A stretch of DNA of 21,802 bases from a virus. This document shows, piece after piece, positions 1-20,606 of the stretch. The stretch spans positions 1-21,802 of the IMG/VR virus record IMGVR_UViG_3300009151_000461, one strand, 5' to 3'. A program made the position numbers and the translations under genes. Every line of letters starts with the position of its first letter. The first letter of the stretch is position 1. Under the pieces are notes generated by a model. The model did no database searches and was not told where the DNA came from. It worked only from the letters and a program-made list of their open reading frames with translations.

Positions 1-3000
1 ACTACCAGTAGTCTTGATTGGATTAGCGTTAATATTGTTTATCTCAGAACCGATCTGAGAGTTAGTTCTATATCCTGGAGCTGCTTGCTTGAATAAGCTT
101 AAAGCTTCTCGTTCACTGAGTCCTCTTGCTCTAAGAGTACGTATAATGCTTTTTAAAGCACTTATAGTTGTTGCGTCTTTCTCTAACTCACCTTGCTTAC
201 CAAGATACTTGGAAGGATCTATTTTGTAAGTTGGATCCACATTATTTTTCGCTAGCTCAAACTCATGTGAAGCTGCAAATGGCAACATACCCTGAGCATC
301 AGCCGCTGGTTGATTAGTAGGTACGGTTGCTGGCTTAACTTTAACTGCTCTAGGTGCAGGTTTACCTTTTCTAGAGGCACTCATTCTACTTAGACAAGCA
401 CTACTTTCTTTACATCCTTTAGCTGCCTTTAAAATGAGCTCCCTGATTCTTTCCGGTGTAGCTCCTGCAATCTTTTTTAAACTTCCATCTTTTTCAAAAT
501 AATTTATTAGATCTTTATGGGCTTGCTGATGCTGCGCAGCAAAATTTGGATCGGTTTGAGCTAACTCATGGCTAGGTATGTTCCCTTGACTAGAGTTAGA
601 TACAGGTACGTTTTGTAGTTTTTTTGATTTGGTCAGATAGGAGAATCTATTCCTGTTGGCTCTGTTCCATGGGACCACATTATGTCTGCCGTGTTGCGCA
701 ATAAGTGCCTGAATCTGGTCTTTAGATGTTGTGCCTGGAATATAAAATATCTTACCTTCAACAGCAGGAAGATGTATGTTTCCTGTTTGCGGATTTAGTC
801 TCGAAGGTAACTGTACTTCACCACTATCTGCTCTCACTAGATGAGATATGGCTGTCGGAGGCATTTTCGATTGGTTTGCCACCAACCCAACATTTCCATA
901 TTCTTGCAGAGGGCCGTTTGGAGAAAAAGATACGGTGCCCCAATTTTTAGACCCGCCAGGGTTCAAAGTTGTTAATAACTCTTCGTTAGCGTAAGCACCT
1001 ACATGTCCAGGCATAGCTGCACGGACTTTTCGCCCAGCATGACTATCTAACGTAAACTTTTTAAAATAAGGGTCTGTTGTATTGAACTTCCCTGAAAGGG
1101 TTTCTTTTAAAAGTGCGTCGTGGTTGTAGTGCGCCCCTTGAGGAGACAATGCTGGCAGCACATTTAAACTTCCTGGCTGTCTCGCTTGACCCACCATAGC
1201 TTCTGTATCATGCACTAGATTTCTAGCAATTCCTTCACTAGCAGACATGATTTTAGGTACTTTTTGTTTAATAAAACTTTCAGTATTAGCTCCAGACACG
1301 GCATGAAATAAAGGATTGAGTCCTTTTGATACTAGAGGCATTAGTTTACCCAACGAGGCAACCTTCTCATACTCGAACGGCTTGTCTCGTTTAATATGCT
1401 TGTGGAAAAACTTACCAGGACTCTTCACCTTCAGTAGACGATGAAATAGACTAGCAGGTACATCACTATACTTGTATTCTCCGCCACTATGAAAGTGTAT
1501 CTCCAGCTCCTTTTCTTTCTTATCGTAGCCTACAGCCTTGATATTACTGCTTTTTAATTCGTGAGTGGCTTCTTTCTCCATATTGCCACCCGTATATTTA
1601 TCAGCTATTCTCTCAGCTTCTGTCTGATTAATCTTTATACCTGCACTCGCAAAAGCTTTAATGATTTTGCTAGGCTTTGCATAATTACTGCCGCCCTCCA
1701 TATGCTTAGGGTGATAAGTACCACCCTTCTCATTGAATATGTCTTTCCAGGCTTTTTCTCTTTTATAGAATTTACTGAGGTCGGCGAGAACAGGGTGATT
1801 TAATCCCGTAGCCTGTGCAGCTAACATCTGGGCAGCATAGGTGGTATCCCCTATCTCTTCTTTAAAGTTTGCTATGTCTCTATTCTTGATTGCGTCTACG
1901 AGCTCTTTAGCTTCTCCAGTAAGAAACGAAAATGGATAATGCCTGCCGTTAGTGACGTCTCTGTGAAGATCTTTACTCTTATGCCACTTATATTCAGCTT
2001 CTTTCTCTAGCTCACTCTCTTTCTTTTTTTTAGCTACTACAGGTTTACAGCTATCGTCGCTATATGGTTCTTTACCAGGAACAGGCTTGTAACCTTCCCA
2101 GCAACGGCCTGCTGCGGTTTTTTCTTTAAGTCTTTTTATTGTATGAGGAGTTACACACTCTTGAGTCATTATTTCGACTCTAGGACGGATAGTCATGCCC
2201 ATATATTCAGTATCCTTAAGCTTGTCCCGATTTTCTTTCCAGAGCTTTATAGTGTTGAGTAGTCCTTGCTTTCCTCGTCCTATATGATCTTTATCGTCTA
2301 GACCATTAATTGTGAAAAAAGTCTTATCAAGATCAGGCATATTAGCCAAATGCTGATATGCTCCAGGCTGACCAAATCTCTCATGACCATCTACAGCACC
2401 ATACAGAAAAGATTTCTCAGAGTCATATGGAAGGCCTGCCCCAAGCAATTCTTTGCCCAGAGTAGCCTCAAACTCTTTTCTGTCGTCTACATATTTTTGA
2501 GCCAGTTCAGGTTTATTCTCCCATCTTCCTCTCGAGCGATCTTTGAGCAGTTCTAGATAGGTTAGAGGCCTTAATTCTTTATGTTTTCCGTGAGGATTGT
2601 AGTGCGTAAATACATAATCCTCCTCCGAAGCTGTCTTCTCATTAGATTCCTTATTTAAAATATCTTTTAATTTATCGTACAAAGTAACGGCTGCACCGCT
2701 TTTGGCTAATAACGCATTAGGTGTTTGTGTTGGCGGCTGTTGTAAGGGAGCTATATTTGTTTTAATCGCCGGATTTTTGTCCTGAGGCAGGTATGGAGCG
2801 CCAGGAGTTTTAGCCAAGCTATTATAGAAATCCCGTCCTGTATTAACAGCTGTGGCACCTAAAGATAAAGCCGTCCCGACTAGTGGTACAGCCCCAGCAA
2901 CGCCGCCAAACCTATCTATCGCTGCCCCTGTAGTGTCTGGGACATTTTGAGCTAGCCGTTGCTGTGTATTAGCTTCTCCGACAGCTATCCCAACTCCAGG

Positions 3001-3864
3001 TACAAACTTATTAAGTTTATTTGTTAGTCTAGTTCCTAAATTTGCAGCGTTGCCTACAAATTTTCTTAACCCCGAGGCCGCAATTGGAGCAGTATCATTT
3101 ATGTTTAAAGTATCTTTGGCCACATTCCAACCACTAGGCCTATTAGTTTGTTGCGCCAAAATTTCTGTTGGCATATTTATTGGACTGTGATGTGTAATAA
3201 ATTGATTACTTGAAGATAGCTCCGGAGGATTTTCTTCAGCCTTCTTCTCCTTAGGGCAACACAGATCACCTTTGATCTCATATCCCTTTGGAACACTATA
3301 TTCCATATCCTCTAGAAACGAACCACTGAAAGCTTCACCCTTGTCTACAGCCTTTGCTACACTTTTAGGCACACCTGCAACCTTCTCTATATAGCTATAT
3401 AGATCCAACACCTCACTTGTTTTCTCTAGTTTACAATAATTCTCTACCACGAAACCTAGTTTACCCAACAGCTCAACGTCCTCGCCGTTAATATAAGTGT
3501 TACCATCAATATCCACTATTCCTGTATTCCTAGCCATCTTGCTCATAGGATCAGCTAGTCTGTTATTCGGTATAGGTGTAAAGTGCTGCTGTTTCTGCGG
3601 AGCTGATACCTCTCCTGGTTTTCGTGACACACTATGACTCTGATTGCTAGTCATAGACTTATTGGATACTGGTAGGCTGATAGGTTTAGCCGGTTCCAGC
3701 TCTTCTGGCTCGGTGAGAGGCTTGGTTATTTCCTTTGTTTTATTATTCTCAAGGTCAGGTAATGCCCCTATCTCTGGTGCCACAAAAGGCTGATCTTTAG
3801 CAGCAGCCATTTTAGCTAATGCCGTGAATATTTTTTCTTTTTTGAGATGCTTGTACAGGGACAT
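1..3864 (-). CDS. Giant multidomain virion-type protein, N-terminal 1288 residues (C-terminus outside window)
   Basis: An uninterrupted minus-strand frame runs from the ATG at 3864 to position 1 (exactly 1288 codons, no stop). Residues 1-140 are Pro/Ser-rich. Residues around 290-370 hold Gly/Ala-rich hydrophobic stretches that could touch membrane. C588 to C606 bound a short module (GRCWEGY, VPGKEPY). Residues about 640-685 match the MazG-like pattern ExxE (651-654) followed by ExxD (670-673, EEIGDTTY). Residues about 771-826 match a KTSC domain (SSNIKAVGYD, SGGEYKYSDVP, FFHKHI). EKxA tetrapeptides occur at 160, 409, 581, 620, 763, 833 and 1228, often just before a module. There is no clear Shine-Dalgarno; the leader is AT-rich. 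Size and mosaic build suggest an internal or ejected virion protein or a processed polyprotein. This is inference; the domain matches are by eye, and the enzyme-like domains could be structural remnants. Confidence 0.85.
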   Translation of the reverse strand, partial: MSLYKHLKKEKIFTALAKMAAAKDQPFVAPEIGALPDLENNKTKEITKPLTEPEELEPAKPISLPVSNKSMTSNQSHSVSRKPGEVSAPQKQQHFTPIPNNRLADPMSKMARNTGIVDIDGNTYINGEDVELLGKLGFVVENYCKLEKTSEVLDLYSYIEKVAGVPKSVAKAVDKGEAFSGSFLEDMEYSVPKGYEIKGDLCCPKEKKAEENPPELSSSNQFITHHSPINMPTEILAQQTNRPSGWNVAKDTLNINDTAPIAASGLRKFVGNAANLGTRLTNKLNKFVPGVGIAVGEANTQQRLAQNVPDTTGAAIDRFGGVAGAVPLVGTALSLGATAVNTGRDFYNSLAKTPGAPYLPQDKNPAIKTNIAPLQQPPTQTPNALLAKSGAAVTLYDKLKDILNKESNEKTASEEDYVFTHYNPHGKHKELRPLTYLELLKDRSRGRWENKPELAQKYVDDRKEFEATLGKELLGAGLPYDSEKSFLYGAVDGHERFGQPGAYQHLANMPDLDKTFFTINGLDDKDHIGRGKQGLLNTIKLWKENRDKLKDTEYMGMTIRPRVEIMTQECVTPHTIKRLKEKTAAGRCWEGYKPVPGKEPYSDDSCKPVVAKKKKESELEKEAEYKWHKSKDLHRDVTNGRHYPFSFLTGEAKELVDAIKNRDIANFKEEIGDTTYAAQMLAAQATGLNHPVLADLSKFYKREKAWKDIFNEKGGTYHPKHMEGGSNYAKPSKIIKAFASAGIKINQTEAERIADKYTGGNMEKEATHELKSSNIKAVGYDKKEKELEIHFHSGGEYKYSDVPASLFHRLLKVKSPGKFFHKHIKRDKPFEYEKVASLGKLMPLVSKGLNPLFHAVSGANTESFIKQKVPKIMSASEGIARNLVHDTEAMVGQARQPGSLNVLPALSPQGAHYNHDALLKETLSGKFNTTDPYFKKFTLDSHAGRKVRAAMPGHVGAYANEELLTTLNPGGSKNWGTVSFSPNGPLQEYGNVGLVANQSKMPPTAISHLVRADSGEVQLPSRLNPQTGNIHLPAVEGKIFYIPGTTSKDQIQALIAQHGRHNVVPWNRANRNRFSYLTKSKKLQNVPVSNSSQGNIPSHELAQTDPNFAAQHQQAHKDLINYFEKDGSLKKIAGATPERIRELILKAAKGCKESSACLSRMSASRKGKPAPRAVKVKPATVPTNQPAADAQGMLPFAASHEFELAKNNVDPTYKIDPSKYLGKQGELEKDATTISALKSIIRTLRARGLSEREALSLFKQAAPGYRTNSQIGSEINNINANPIKTTGS

Positions 3865-5649: not shown

Positions 5650-6432
5650 CTATTTCTTTTTGGGTAGGTTGTACACCGAAGTCATGCCCTGTTCTTTTTG
5701 TGGCATAGATATTGCCTTTGTGGGATCAGGTGCGGCCTGTCCATTTAATCGTTTGAGTGTCTGTATTTTTGCTTTAATTTCTCCAATAGCCTGAGGAACC
5801 AAAGAACTTCCTTGATTTGGAATGTTCAAAGCTTGCCCATAAGCAGCTTTATCGTTTGTGCCCCTAATCAAGTCCGTCAACTTTTTAATACCAGGCTCTT
5901 GTATAACTTCTCCATATTGTGGTGAGCGCGCGCCGAACTGGTTTTTTGCATGCAGAAGACGGAGCATATTTAAGCCGTCTTCCATATTATGATCTTTGGA
6001 ATTTAGTGAATTTATAGCGTTGTGGGCAAACTCACTTTTATTCGCAAGATCTTTCATTCGTGGGCGCAGTTTAAGGTGAGCGTATCCTGCGCCAGCTCCA
6101 GCTCCAATAGCTCCGCCCGCTGCCGCTCCACCGAGACCTCTAGTTAACATGGACTCTAATCTAGAATTAGATACTTCATTACCTGCAGCATCTTGATGAG
6201 TACCTGGAGCTATTAGCCCTGTAGCAGCTCCACCGAGACCTCCTGCAGCACTACCCAGAATTCCGCCTGTGGCAGCTGTGCCTCTACGCAAACCTTTCAG
6301 CAAATTTTCCATTGCTTCAGGGTTGATAGCTGCGACTTTCCAGATTTTATCTGCTTCTATAGGAGATAAGCCCCTTTGCCGCGCTTTTTTAATAAACCCA
6401 GTTTTAAAATTATTTACAGTATTGTTGTCCAT
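5650..6432 (-). CDS. Glycine-zipper protein, probable membrane-active or virion protein
   Basis: 260 aa, not recognised by family. The N-terminus (residues 13-34, KKARQRGLSPIEADKIWK) is a short helical module whose RGLSxxEA core also occurs near residues 1245-1265 of the giant protein at 1-3864. Residues about 50-120 are two Gly/Ala-rich stretches with GxxxG spacing (GGLGGAATG, GGAAAGGAIGAGAGAG), typical of membrane-inserting glycine zippers. The C-terminal half is helical and polar and ends in KKK. A TATAAT box ends only 6 nt before the ATG and there is no Shine-Dalgarno, so the mRNA is probably leaderless. A strong terminator follows, giving a single-gene unit. Role in DNA ejection or membrane penetration is inference. 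Confidence 0.85.
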   Translation of the reverse strand: MDNNTVNNFKTGFIKKARQRGLSPIEADKIWKVAAINPEAMENLLKGLRRGTAATGGILGSAAGGLGGAATGLIAPGTHQDAAGNEVSNSRLESMLTRGLGGAAAGGAIGAGAGAGYAHLKLRPRMKDLANKSEFAHNAINSLNSKDHNMEDGLNMLRLLHAKNQFGARSPQYGEVIQEPGIKKLTDLIRGTNDKAAYGQALNIPNQGSSLVPQAIGEIKAKIQTLKRLNGQAAPDPTKAISMPQKEQGMTSVYNLPKKK

Positions 6433-7332: not shown

Positions 7333-7833
7333 CTAGCGGAACATAGCATCAGGGTGATTTAGTTTCACCCTTTTACGTTTTCCTGTGTAAAGGGTCCGCC
7401 CTTCAATACAAGCTTCGGCAACCCATACGTTTGCCTGCTCAAGGCTCATGGCGAACCTGCGGGCCATGAGTAACATATCAATCTGGTACCATTTTGGTTT
7501 GATGTAATAACCATCACGTTTGCCTGTTACCTCTAACACTTGGAAATCAAACTTTCTTTCCGTCTGTGATTTAGTAGACACTCGACTACCTAGACAGTTT
7601 AGCTTCTCTTCGGAGGTGGCAGTTACCTCCAGTATTTCTACTAGCTCTTTTTCTAACTGAGCTTTGCTGTTTAGAAGCTCCGTCCGATATTCCGAGTAAT
7701 ATTTCTCGAGGCCTGCAAGACTCGAGATATTATCCTGCAACTCTTCGTTGAGTTTTTCCGCCCGGTTCAGGGAGGACAATTTTGCTGCCACTGAAGCAGC
7801 TTCTTTTTTCAGTTTTTCTACTAGTTCTTGCAT
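7333..7833 (-). CDS. Coiled-coil protein of the tRNA operon, unknown function
   Basis: 166 aa, not recognised. Residues 1-85 are strongly helical with heptad character ([19 protein letters not shown] and several LEKE-type repeats). The C-terminal half is a different, basic domain with aromatic residues ([14 protein letters not shown]) and a lysine/arginine stretch ([13 protein letters not shown]). This could be a nucleic-acid-binding domain on a coiled-coil stalk, as inference only. It sits between the CAU tRNA and tRNA-Leu and is probably co-transcribed with them. No Shine-Dalgarno is visible before the ATG. Confidence 0.8.
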
Positions 7834-7864
7834 TGTTTTATTGGTTGGTTGTTATGACAAAGAA

Positions 7865-7970
7865 CTCTCAGCTCTAAAGGTAGGGCCGGAGGGATTCGAA
7901 CCCCCAACCAAGGGATTATGAGTCCCCTGCTCTGACCATTGAGCTACGACCCCATCTTTAGAGCTGAGAG
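7865..7970 (-). repeat. Perfect 15-bp inverted repeat enclosing a tRNA
   Basis: CTCTCAGCTCTAAAG (7865-7879) and CTTTAGAGCTGAGAG (7956-7970) are exact reverse complements flanking the CAU tRNA, with only 1-2 nt between each arm and the tRNA ends. In RNA this extends the acceptor stem by 15 bp, like processing stems around rRNAs. There is no U tract, so it is not a simple terminator. Confidence 0.92.
7881..7953 (-). tRNA. tRNA with CAU anticodon (Ile2 or elongator Met)
   Basis: 73 nt. The acceptor GGGGTCG pairs with CGGCCCT (G-U at the end), the D arm is GCTC/GAGC, and the anticodon arm GGGGA-CTCATAA-TCCCT has anticodon CAT at 7918-7920 of the plus strand. The T arm is GGGGG-TTCGAAT-CCCTC. No CCA is encoded. 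The anticodon region resembles tRNA-Ile2, whose CAU is modified to lysidine to read AUA. The initiator hallmarks (1-72 mismatch as C-A, three GC pairs next to the loop) are absent. Ile2 versus elongator Met cannot be settled by eye. Confidence 0.93.
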
Positions 7971-7985
7971 CTTAACACTCTGTCT

Positions 7986-8002
7986 TCAATATATTATACC
8001 AA
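7986..8002 (-). promoter_or_regulatory. Extended -10 promoter of the tRNA operon
   Basis: On the minus strand TTGGTATAATATATTGA contains TGG-TATAAT, an extended -10 box. The identical 17-mer occurs at 18838-18854. The predicted start near 7986 lies 16 nt before the inverted repeat that encloses the CAU tRNA. No good -35 is seen. Confidence 0.7.
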
Positions 8003-8018
8003 TAAAACCTCAATAATA

Positions 8019-8465
8019 TTAAGCAGCAGGCTTGCGATATTTTGACGTAAACATAAGCACATACCCTTTGTGTTCAGGGCTCAATTCCAACACATAGGCT
8101 TTATCTTCGTCAGTTTCTAATACAGCGCCAGCAAATATTCCACCAGCAGCCAGTACAAAACCAAACTGGGTATTCTTTACATTGTTGATTTTGCCGTAAA
8201 TCTTGAATACTCCCTCAGACTCTTGTATCTCTGTAACTACTCCAGTATAGCAGAAGCCATCAGTTCTATATATCCGCACAGTTCTACCCAGCTGAGCTTT
8301 ACTCACTTGCTCAGGACTAGCTACACCTGATTTAGATGTCAGATATGTTTCTTCTTCAAGTTGCAATCTAAACCCCGGCAATTGATCTTCTGCTTTTAAA
8401 CCTGCTTTTGTTGAGCTAGAGGATAGAAAGACAAGCGCTAACGAACAAACGAATTTAAGTTTCAT
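8019..8465 (-). CDS. Secreted protein resembling a metalloprotease N-terminal domain
   Basis: 148 aa. A signal peptide (about residues 1-21, ending SSSTKA) predicts export. The mature part (about 50-145) is beta-rich and follows the order of the N-terminal domain of the metalloprotease at 4050-5516: a GxV strand, a charged turn, an FxF strand, a G-xx-A/E-G-x-V hairpin (GGIFAGAVLE here, GDQAEGMVML there), then a strand ending VLE. No protease motif is present. It starts by ATGA overlap with the 110-aa gene and ends about 15 nt before the tRNA promoter. It could be a free-standing propeptide-like inhibitor or partner of the protease; identity is low and this is inference. Confidence 0.8.
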   Translation of the reverse strand: MKLKFVCSLALVFLSSSSTKAGLKAEDQLPGFRLQLEEETYLTSKSGVASPEQVSKAQLGRTVRIYRTDGFCYTGVVTEIQESEGVFKIYGKINNVKNTQFGFVLAAGGIFAGAVLETDEDKAYVLELSPEHKGYVLMFTSKYRKPAA

Positions 8466-19051: not shown

Positions 19052-19479
19052 TCTTCTAGATATATTGGATAGTTTTGTTGGAGGTAGTGCGCAATTGGTT
19101 CTATAGCGTAGCCCGACCGAGCATTCTCTTTTCGTACAAACACACCACCACTACCGGAATACTCTTCAGCCTGATAAACCACAAGCAATGCACCGCCAGA
19201 ATAGAACGCGACAGCCTCAGGCGCGTAATTACCGAACATGTTCACCAGATCGCTGTACAAGTCTGTTCTTTCCAGATATTTAAAAAACATCATTTTACCC
19301 AAGACAAGGCTGTTTTTTGATGTACCTAGGAAAAGCTCCGAGTCTGGTCCGGCTATCTCTAGCACAGGCGACTGACCGTTCTGCTCGAGGTACAGCTCCG
19401 CTTGGGCTCTTACTTTAGCTTTAGTTATTTTAAAATGCTTCGCCACGGCGTCACATACGCCTAGTTGTTCTCGTGTCAT
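19048..19479 (-). CDS. Unknown phage protein downstream of RNA ligase
   Basis: 143 aa. The N-terminal ~35 residues are helical with a helix-turn-helix feel (LGVCDAVAKHFKITKAKVRA), followed by a beta-rich part (GGALLVVYQAEEYSGSGGVF). It starts by ATGA overlap with the RNA ligase stop and ends by ATGA overlap with the 61-aa gene, so all three are translated from one message. Not recognised; a link to RNA repair is suggested only by position. Confidence 0.78.
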   Translation of the reverse strand: MTREQLGVCDAVAKHFKITKAKVRAQAELYLEQNGQSPVLEIAGPDSELFLGTSKNSLVLGKMMFFKYLERTDLYSDLVNMFGNYAPEAVAFYSGGALLVVYQAEEYSGSGGVFVRKENARSGYAIEPIAHYLQQNYPIYLEE

Positions 19480-20606
19480 AGATATTGTTCTATTAAGTTT
19501 TTAAGTTGTCGGTCTGTCAGCATTTGATTGTTCAGTATAGTGAAAGCATACTGCGTTCTGCCTTGTTTACTGTAGGCTTCTTGAATAACTTCGGCAGCAT
19601 GTTTTCTTCCTTCTCGAGTATCTGCATCCAGAGAAGATACAAACCTGTTTATCTTAAGTAACTCTTCTGAGGTCTTTGCGTATGCGTCACATACTCTATA
19701 AGCATATTCTTTAGCTTGAGGAGCACACTCAAAGTCGAAGCTGGACTCTAGTTCTTTGATAAAGCTCTCTGCAGACTTCGCCTCTTTTTCAATACTGGCC
19801 AGGTACAGATCAAGCACATGATTTAGTGTACACTGACTTCTGAACTTGTGAGCGGCTAGATACCAGGAGCATTTGATCTTCTTGATGTCTTGGCCGTTAT
19901 TATAATATACACAATAACCCTCAGCTTTTCGCATATCCACAAGCGATACCTGCAGAGAGTTGAATGATGGAAACTTGAGGTGATCGGCTGTGCTCACGCC
20001 AAGATCCATCGCTATTTCAGGCAGGTATACTTGCGGAACATAAGAGTAATTTTCATGCTCTATGACGCCAATCAGCTTCAACTTAGGTTCAGCTCCATAA
20101 TCTACCACGATCGGGTTATTCCTGGTAGTCCACTCATATATGTATGAGTAGGCGCAATTATCCAGGTAAGGATAGTTGCTGAATACTTTTGGGTATTTCT
20201 CTTTGAAATACGCTATTTCATGGGCAGTAGCGTCATGTTCAGTTGCATCAAAAGTACCTCTGGTGCGTACGATCAGCTCACCATGAGCAATACCACCAAA
20301 CTTAGAAACTATCAGACAAGACCCATCAATCTTTTCTATAGGTATCGCTGTGTGATCTTTTATCTGCTCGTCTGTGAAGTCAGGAACAATGTGATTTGCT
20401 TCTCCATAGTTAAAGAACTTCTTGAAGCCCAGGGACACTGGGCGACCATCAGCTGTCCAGATACTGCTTCTGTATATCAGATTGTCTTTTGTCCACTTCA
20501 CTCCCAGGCCGCTGGGGAATACCAGATAGCATGTCTCTCCAGCTACTATTCTTTCTCTAACAACAAAGCCTTGAGATTTCAGGTCGTCAAAGTTCAAAGG
20601 ATTCAT
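19476..20606 (-). CDS. T4 Rnl1-type RNA ligase
   Basis: 376 aa, close to T4 RnlA length (374). Nucleotidyltransferase motifs are visible: motif I EKIDGS with the adenylated Lys K92, upstream FKKFFNYGE (the KFFN element of the family), motif III-like region SYIYEWT, motif IV E229-G230, and motif V K243-x-K245. The C-terminal ~120 residues are helical, as in the Rnl1 tRNA-specificity domain. It joins 5'-phosphate and 3'-hydroxyl RNA ends with ATP; in T4 it repairs tRNA cut by host anticodon nucleases. No polynucleotide kinase/phosphatase partner is in the window. It overlaps the preceding gene's end by about 20 nt. Confidence 0.93.
   Translation of the reverse strand: MNPLNFDDLKSQGFVVRERIVAGETCYLVFPSGLGVKWTKDNLIYRSSIWTADGRPVSLGFKKFFNYGEANHIVPDFTDEQIKDHTAIPIEKIDGSCLIVSKFGGIAHGELIVRTRGTFDATEHDATAHEIAYFKEKYPKVFSNYPYLDNCAYSYIYEWTTRNNPIVVDYGAEPKLKLIGVIEHENYSYVPQVYLPEIAMDLGVSTADHLKFPSFNSLQVSLVDMRKAEGYCVYYNNGQDIKKIKCSWYLAAHKFRSQCTLNHVLDLYLASIEKEAKSAESFIKELESSFDFECAPQAKEYAYRVCDAYAKTSEELLKINRFVSSLDADTREGRKHAAEVIQEAYSKQGRTQYAFTILNNQMLTDRQLKNLIEQYL

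Follow-up and report, generated by a model that had tools for sequence, protein, structure and literature searches.

Why should one large phage protein repeat the same short tetrapeptide at the edges of its domains? The question is raised by P0001, a modular giant protein encoded in a 21.8 kb virus fragment from IMG/VR (record IMGVR_UViG_3300009151_000461, positions 1 to 21,802), the whole of which is called the window here. The open reading frame (ORF), defined from the frame itself and from homologues, lies on the minus strand (1..3864), starts with ATG at 3864 and is still open at window base 1, the contig edge cutting its 3' end and leaving a protein of 1288 aa with an incomplete C-terminus. 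Our analysis indicates that P0001 is probably a packaged precursor of swappable-module ("polyvalent") cargo whose K-x-A junctions are sites for the prohead protease, cut in trans.

P0001 contains eight EKxA tetrapeptides (residues 160, 206, 409, 581, 620, 763, 833 and 1228), against 0.83 expected from its composition. The first-pass annotation had counted seven and expected about one; that expectation agrees with ours and all seven positions were present, the EKKA at 206 having been overlooked. The weaker forms it listed are also there, EKTS at 147 as given and KKIA starting at 1130 rather than 1131. One in 20,000 composition shuffles of the protein reached seven copies, and Ala stands two residues past the Lys in 8 of the 15 EK dipeptides. 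E-K-x-A is the top over-represented gapped triplet of P0001 (Poisson p = 2.8e-6), a value that becomes modest once corrected over the several thousand possible triplets. For this one protein alone, such modesty leaves some room for chance and composition in a Lys/Ala/Glu-rich linker protein; the tests across its 13-member family, the reversed and substituted motif controls and the independent signal in head proteins described below contradict this explanation and make it most improbable.

The motifs found by our scan divide P0001 into a series of modules, all encoded on the minus strand. A KMA site (residues 109-111, 3532..3540) directly precedes the anchor module (residues 112-209, 3238..3531), and K-x-A precedes the RNTG start of this module in most homologues too. 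The anchor was defined from homologues; it carries an invariant YIEKxA, seen here as EKVA (residues 160-163, 3376..3387), and ends with CCPxEK(K/T)A, seen here as EKKA (residues 206-209, 3238..3249). It is followed by a Gly/Ala/Pro-rich module (residues 214-405, 2650..3225; phrog_23178, E = 0.0017) with weak likeness to a module in the relative G011 and in other virion-region proteins. Two EKTA sites (residues 409-412, 2629..2640, and 581-584, 2113..2124) enclose a module of unknown fold for which no relative was found (residues 413-580, 2125..2628), the second lying ahead of a Cys module, RCWEGYKPVPGKEPYSDDSCKP (residues 585-619, 2008..2112), a short cassette that is present in other proteins as well. 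An EKEA (residues 620-623, 1996..2007) leads into the MazG-like module (residues 624-762, 1579..1995), which has a weak, above-cutoff Pfam match at 647-685 (PF03819, E = 9e-5) and is 87% identical to a differently placed module in G011. A second EKEA (residues 763-766, 1567..1578) stands ahead of the KTSC module (residues 767-832, 1369..1566; PF13619 at 771-826, E = 1.4e-20), and EKVA (residues 833-836, 1357..1368) stands past it. One or more modules of unknown fold, again with no relative found (residues 837-1129, 478..1356), run to KKIA (residues 1130-1133, 466..477), a K-x-A with Lys at P4. The next module (residues 1134-1227, 184..465) is 41% identical to the C-terminal module of a homologue, L115, and EKDA (residues 1228-1231, 172..183) separates it from a leader-like hairpin, RGLSEREALSLFKQAAPG (residues 1232-1288, 1..171), that is a separate downstream gene in the relative G004. 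The earlier placing of an EKxA just before each of the Cys, MazG-like and KTSC modules was accurate, with module starts at 588 and 624 and the KTSC match at 771-826. An NCBIfam search of P0001 gave no additional matches.

Relatives were sought with P0001's own sequence and through the portal gene. Because P0001 is a mosaic, a back-translation search with the protein itself found no relative, and tblastn against named phages returned essentially the KTSC region only. The portal gene (phrog_64, E = 0.0036 for the orthologue in G009) yielded 32 loci, nearly all at 80-86% identity with one partial match at 100%, some of them in records of 128-204 kb. P0001 was matched in 8 of 19 portal-derived records, and further members were added with an anchor-module profile, giving a family of 13 distinct proteins which, being homologous and drawn from related phages, are not independent. 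EKxA occurs 60 times across these 13, against 7.6 expected. The anchor (RNTG...CCPxEK) is the sole module common to all 13, and the remainder is reshuffled: the order is anchor, AstE-like stretch, KTSC and MazG in G009; anchor, P-loop kinase, MazG, Gly-rich module and acylphosphatase-like module in G011; and kinase, Cys peptide and MazG in L107, while L109 has two kinase modules in tandem. Domains recognised in homologues include the P-loop kinase, DUF6321 and DUF6624.

Among described classes, this architecture comes closest to the polyvalent proteins of phages and conjugative elements (Iyer et al. 2017, PMC5512222); that study proposed that a zincin within the polypeptide processes them. Like them, P0001 joins unrelated enzyme domains (KTSC and MazG) in one long polypeptide, its relatives are extensively mosaic in domain order and content, and zincin modules occur in some of those relatives; packaging, injection and proteolytic release of domains were likewise proposed for that class. 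KTSC and MazG have zero text matches in that paper. P0001 differs in having no embedded metallopeptidase (no HExxH as far as it is sequenced) and in its processing being predicted in trans, by a prohead protease whose motif is shared with capsid proteins. Processing in cis by an embedded zincin would agree with what is thought of the first-described polyvalent class (PMC5512222) and with the HExxH zincin-like modules of 4 of the 13 members (G003, G014, L109 and L115). It is very unlikely to explain the junctions, given that P0001 as sequenced and eight other members keep K-x-A junctions with no HExxH and that the motif is shared with the major capsid protein (MCP) and the protease. Since P0001 has no HExxH yet four relatives do, both modes of processing may exist.

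If the motif marks module borders, it should coincide with the points at which homology between family members stops. We took as breakpoints the ends of local homology where both proteins run on (n = 129). K-x-A lay within 8 residues of 63 of the 129, against 25.0 expected (p = 2e-4 by circular shifts, the lowest value that the test can give; the shifts control for composition and in part for shared ancestry), and EKxA within 8 residues of 28, against 10.7. Reversed A-x-K (14 against 16.9 expected) and R-x-A (1 against 7.1) showed no such association, nor, of the Glu-type motifs of T4 and phiKZ, did LxE/IxE (17 against 15.7); the other, A/SxE, was weakly raised (27 against 19.4). LxE/IxE, RxA and AxK were rejected as alternative junction motifs on these counts. 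KxE, KxS and KxxA were associated with junctions more weakly than K-x-A, in part because they overlap it (EKEA, KxAS).

These breakpoints bear on the second idea of the first-pass annotation, that EKxA is a conserved joining sequence left by repeated module insertion in a protein that works uncut. The idea is partly true, because module breakpoints do fall at K-x-A sites, and a single locus pair illustrates it: the L094 protein (7360-8340) carries a Cys peptide cassette between LQKQA (followed by RCWEGY) and KKEKKA (followed by ATDLSS), and its orthologue in G009 (113663-114562) has a cassette-free site, IEKVS followed by SFDVNS. The ~35-aa cassette, with K-x-A on both sides, is thus cleanly present or absent in otherwise orthologous proteins. 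The flanks of the junctions vary, which argues against one inherited linker. In three lineages the motif is moreover enriched in head proteins that are not mosaic, where selection acts on its Lys and Ala only. As the whole explanation, a recombination linker is unlikely.

The head proteins were compared in the 150-204 kb relatives (G009 and others) and in two cultured phages that are more distantly related, Salmonella phage Arash and Vibrio phage D69, whose capsid protein is 27-28% identical. A blind ranking of K-x-A in each of three proteomes (G009, G011 and G003) put the same proteins at the top in all three: in G009 lengths, proteins of 353 and 503 aa, a scaffold-like protein of 299 aa, the head maturation protease and its 130-aa neighbour. 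Because some head sets of the first enrichment test had been chosen after this ranking was seen, a test limited to the syntenic head block was run, in which Lys and Ala at spacing 2 outranked every other residue pair and spacing in each lineage (64 against 27.8 expected in G009, p = 3e-9; 39 against 16.9 in Arash, p = 3e-6; 43 against 17.5 in D69, p = 2e-7). The remaining G009 proteins, long tail-fibre regions excluded, stood at expectation (239 against 239.3), and neither A-x-K nor R-x-A was enriched. In Arash, where the ranking again brought the same head proteins to the top, the five most K-x-A-enriched of 147 proteins (gp220, gp225, gp223, gp242 and gp222) are all virion proteins according to published mass spectrometry.

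A site profile trained solely on Arash and D69 head proteins connects these observations to P0001. K-x-A at the junctions of the P0001 family scored much higher than K-x-A in other parts of the proteomes (p = 2.7e-12), as did the head proteins of the window virus's relatives (p = 1.5e-21). The best-scoring sites in P0001 were 161, 621, 764, 834 and 1131 (numbered by the Lys).

The relatives also encode a candidate enzyme. A head maturation protease was recognised in the three lineages (phrog_18299, E = 2.4e-9, 2.1e-6 and 6.6e-7; for example L063:187-1629), upstream of the scaffold-like genes and the MCP gene (phrog_2522, E = 1.5e-3, and 4e-12 for the Arash orthologue). Its RHHxNK and SMA motifs are invariant across 28% identity and are candidates for the catalytic His and Ser. 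K-x-A occurs shortly ahead of the putative catalytic core in all lineages (TEKTAGQT, LTKQAAAA and LEKSAAAN), in different alignment columns, and an invariant K-x-A lies near the C-terminus. The N-termini of the MCPs align (LVKEAGAAMSAFVRQKLRE in Arash, LTKEAGAAMSTFVRQKLRE in D69 and EEKKAAVSAQSFTRNKLRE in the relatives of the window virus) and share K-x-A at one column despite 27-28% identity; past residue 27 the G009 MCP has none. Candidate substrate peptides bearing K-x-A include LVKEAGAAMS, TEKTAGQTDA and NMEKEATHELKS.

This distribution also bears on the main rival explanation, that K-x-A is an encapsidation or core-binding motif docking head proteins and cargo to the capsid or scaffold. 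Docking would account for the head specificity, for the many copies in scaffold-like proteins and for the recurrence, at protein ends, of a leader hairpin with two K-x-A (GFVKRAxEYGxSxxEAxxLLKxA). It leaves unexplained why K-x-A stands ahead of the protease core and, in the MCP, at the N-terminus only, why Ser or Ala is preferred at +1, and why sites at module borders flank tiny cassettes on both sides; we consider it unlikely.

The consensus of the sites is [L/I/M]-[E/V]-K-x-A-[S/A/E]. Among orthologous head proteins the motif Lys was retained in 86% and the motif Ala in 88%, against 67% and 60% for other Lys and Ala, and the middle residue was retained at background (64%). The conserved core is K-x-A, in which Ala probably occupies P1, and Glu is no more than a favoured residue at P4. 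Herpesvirus assemblins cut after Ala. Our best reading of the sequence data is that [L/I/M]-[E/V]-K-x-A, with the cut past Ala and before [S/A], would be the prohead-protease site of this phage group.

The processing-site idea is therefore the better supported of the two in the first-pass annotation, given the protease in relatives and the motif in protease, scaffold-like proteins and MCP across three lineages, with the correction that its core is K-x-A and not Glu. The analogy drawn there to Glu-containing protease motifs holds in format and fails in residue. The prohead protease of the phiKZ-like phage SPN3US, gp245, cuts past A-X-E and favours Ser as the next residue (PMC10052503), and T4 gp21 cuts C-terminal to Glu (PMC9026906). 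The proposed K-x-A system shares with these the short P3-x-P1 motif, Ser favoured past the cut (SPN3US), a substrate set of MCP, the protease itself and internal or scaffold proteins, and several sites per propeptide; it differs in that P1 would be Ala, not Glu, and P3 Lys, and in a mosaic multi-enzyme substrate. None of the matches listed by a literature search for a KxA prohead motif used that term.

Several observations weigh against processing by the prohead protease. The window has neither a protease nor an MCP gene, so that the proposed search for a protease succeeded in the relatives and not in the window itself. For a herpes/HK97-type fold of the protease, the AlphaFold model was unusable (pLDDT 39) and a PDB profile search gave no match. 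P0001 shows no excess of K-x-A overall (15 against 12.1 expected), its unusual features being limited to the EKxA subset and the positions; sites 206, 581 and 1228 score moderately on the cross-lineage profile, and site 160 falls within the conserved anchor module. Finally, the scaffold-like gp223 of Arash has a published coverage of 100%, a poor fit with a destroyed scaffold, in a mass spectrometry table whose coverages are oddly high throughout. An AlphaFold model of P0001 residues 571-845 (mean pLDDT 60, KTSC domain confident) shows low confidence or dips at four sites, and likewise across half of the MazG-like module; it may lend weak support to processing at these sites.

Under prohead-protease processing, P0001 would enter the prohead core during head assembly, and the protease would cut past the Ala of [L/I/M]-[E/V]-K-x-A before [S/A/E], as it would in its own pro-region, in the scaffold-like proteins and at the MCP N-terminus. 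Cutting would free separate modules (anchor, Cys peptide, MazG-like, KTSC and others), which would remain with the DNA and pass into the host, where they may act. The antirestriction head proteins DarA and DdrB of phage P1 (PMC9024508, PMC5512222) are comparable as head-packaged, defence-related and proteolytically processed precursors; they differ in that the DarA processing site is not determined and no repeated motif between many swappable modules has been described. A wider proposal, to which we would give a little less than an even chance, is that K-x-A is a universal module border, so that the capsid protease both matures the shell and cleaves a combinatorial cargo polyprotein to give many injected enzymes, any K-x-A-flanked cassette being deliverable cargo and cassettes being traded between phages at the borders. 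If prohead-protease processing is right, genomes would provide a sequence rule for virion cargo, each K-x-A-bordered module in a large uncultivated phage group becoming a candidate injected protein; the head protease would have a specificity unlike the well-studied Glu-type ones; and phages would have a mechanism for exchanging injected enzymes, some possibly acting in counter-defence, in the form of plug-in cassettes.

The end of P0001 requires separate comment. Its last ~40 residues (~1250-1288) match a separate G004 gene almost exactly in DNA sequence, and for this reason the contig end may represent a recent fusion, by recombination inside the leader, or an assembly chimera. At the nucleotide level the match covers the window's last ~120 bases of this frame and the unfused downstream G004 gene (L086:12868-13023), and the preceding sequence differs.

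The hairpin is not confined to P0001. A ~30-aa N-terminal form, QAYVxGF(V/I)KRAxEYGYSxxEAxxLLKxA, stands at the start of many small proteins that are not otherwise related (G009 58987, 59721, 62448 and 137327; G003 25829 and 137574; window 5650-6432). The window example is a small protein on the minus strand (5650..6432) with the leader-like hairpin FIKKARQRGLSPIEADKIWKVAA, a candidate for co-packaging given the similar leaders elsewhere. The recurrent hairpin is a candidate capsid-targeting leader ending in K-x-A. It resembles, in its GF(V/I)KRA form, the N-terminal capsid targeting leaders of T4 internal proteins, which are removed by the prohead protease, the proteins being packaged and injected (PMC9026906); the present leader differs in its length of ~30 aa, its two K-x-A and its occurrence also at C-termini, and its targeting role is putative.

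Multi-subunit RNA polymerase beta/beta-prime-like proteins are encoded in G009 (118825-121830 and 123382-125232) and in Arash (gp206 and gp216), and the two Arash proteins are among the most abundant in the virion. In the window, the gene next to P0001 (4050-5516, minus strand) is of a secreted metallopeptidase-like kind: the N-terminus of its 488-aa product resembles a signal peptide, and the protein carries HEVGHTLGLNHD. It had no PHROG match. Farther along, 19476-20606 (minus strand) encodes a homologue of the RNA ligase / tail fibre attachment catalyst (phrog_562, E = 2e-34).

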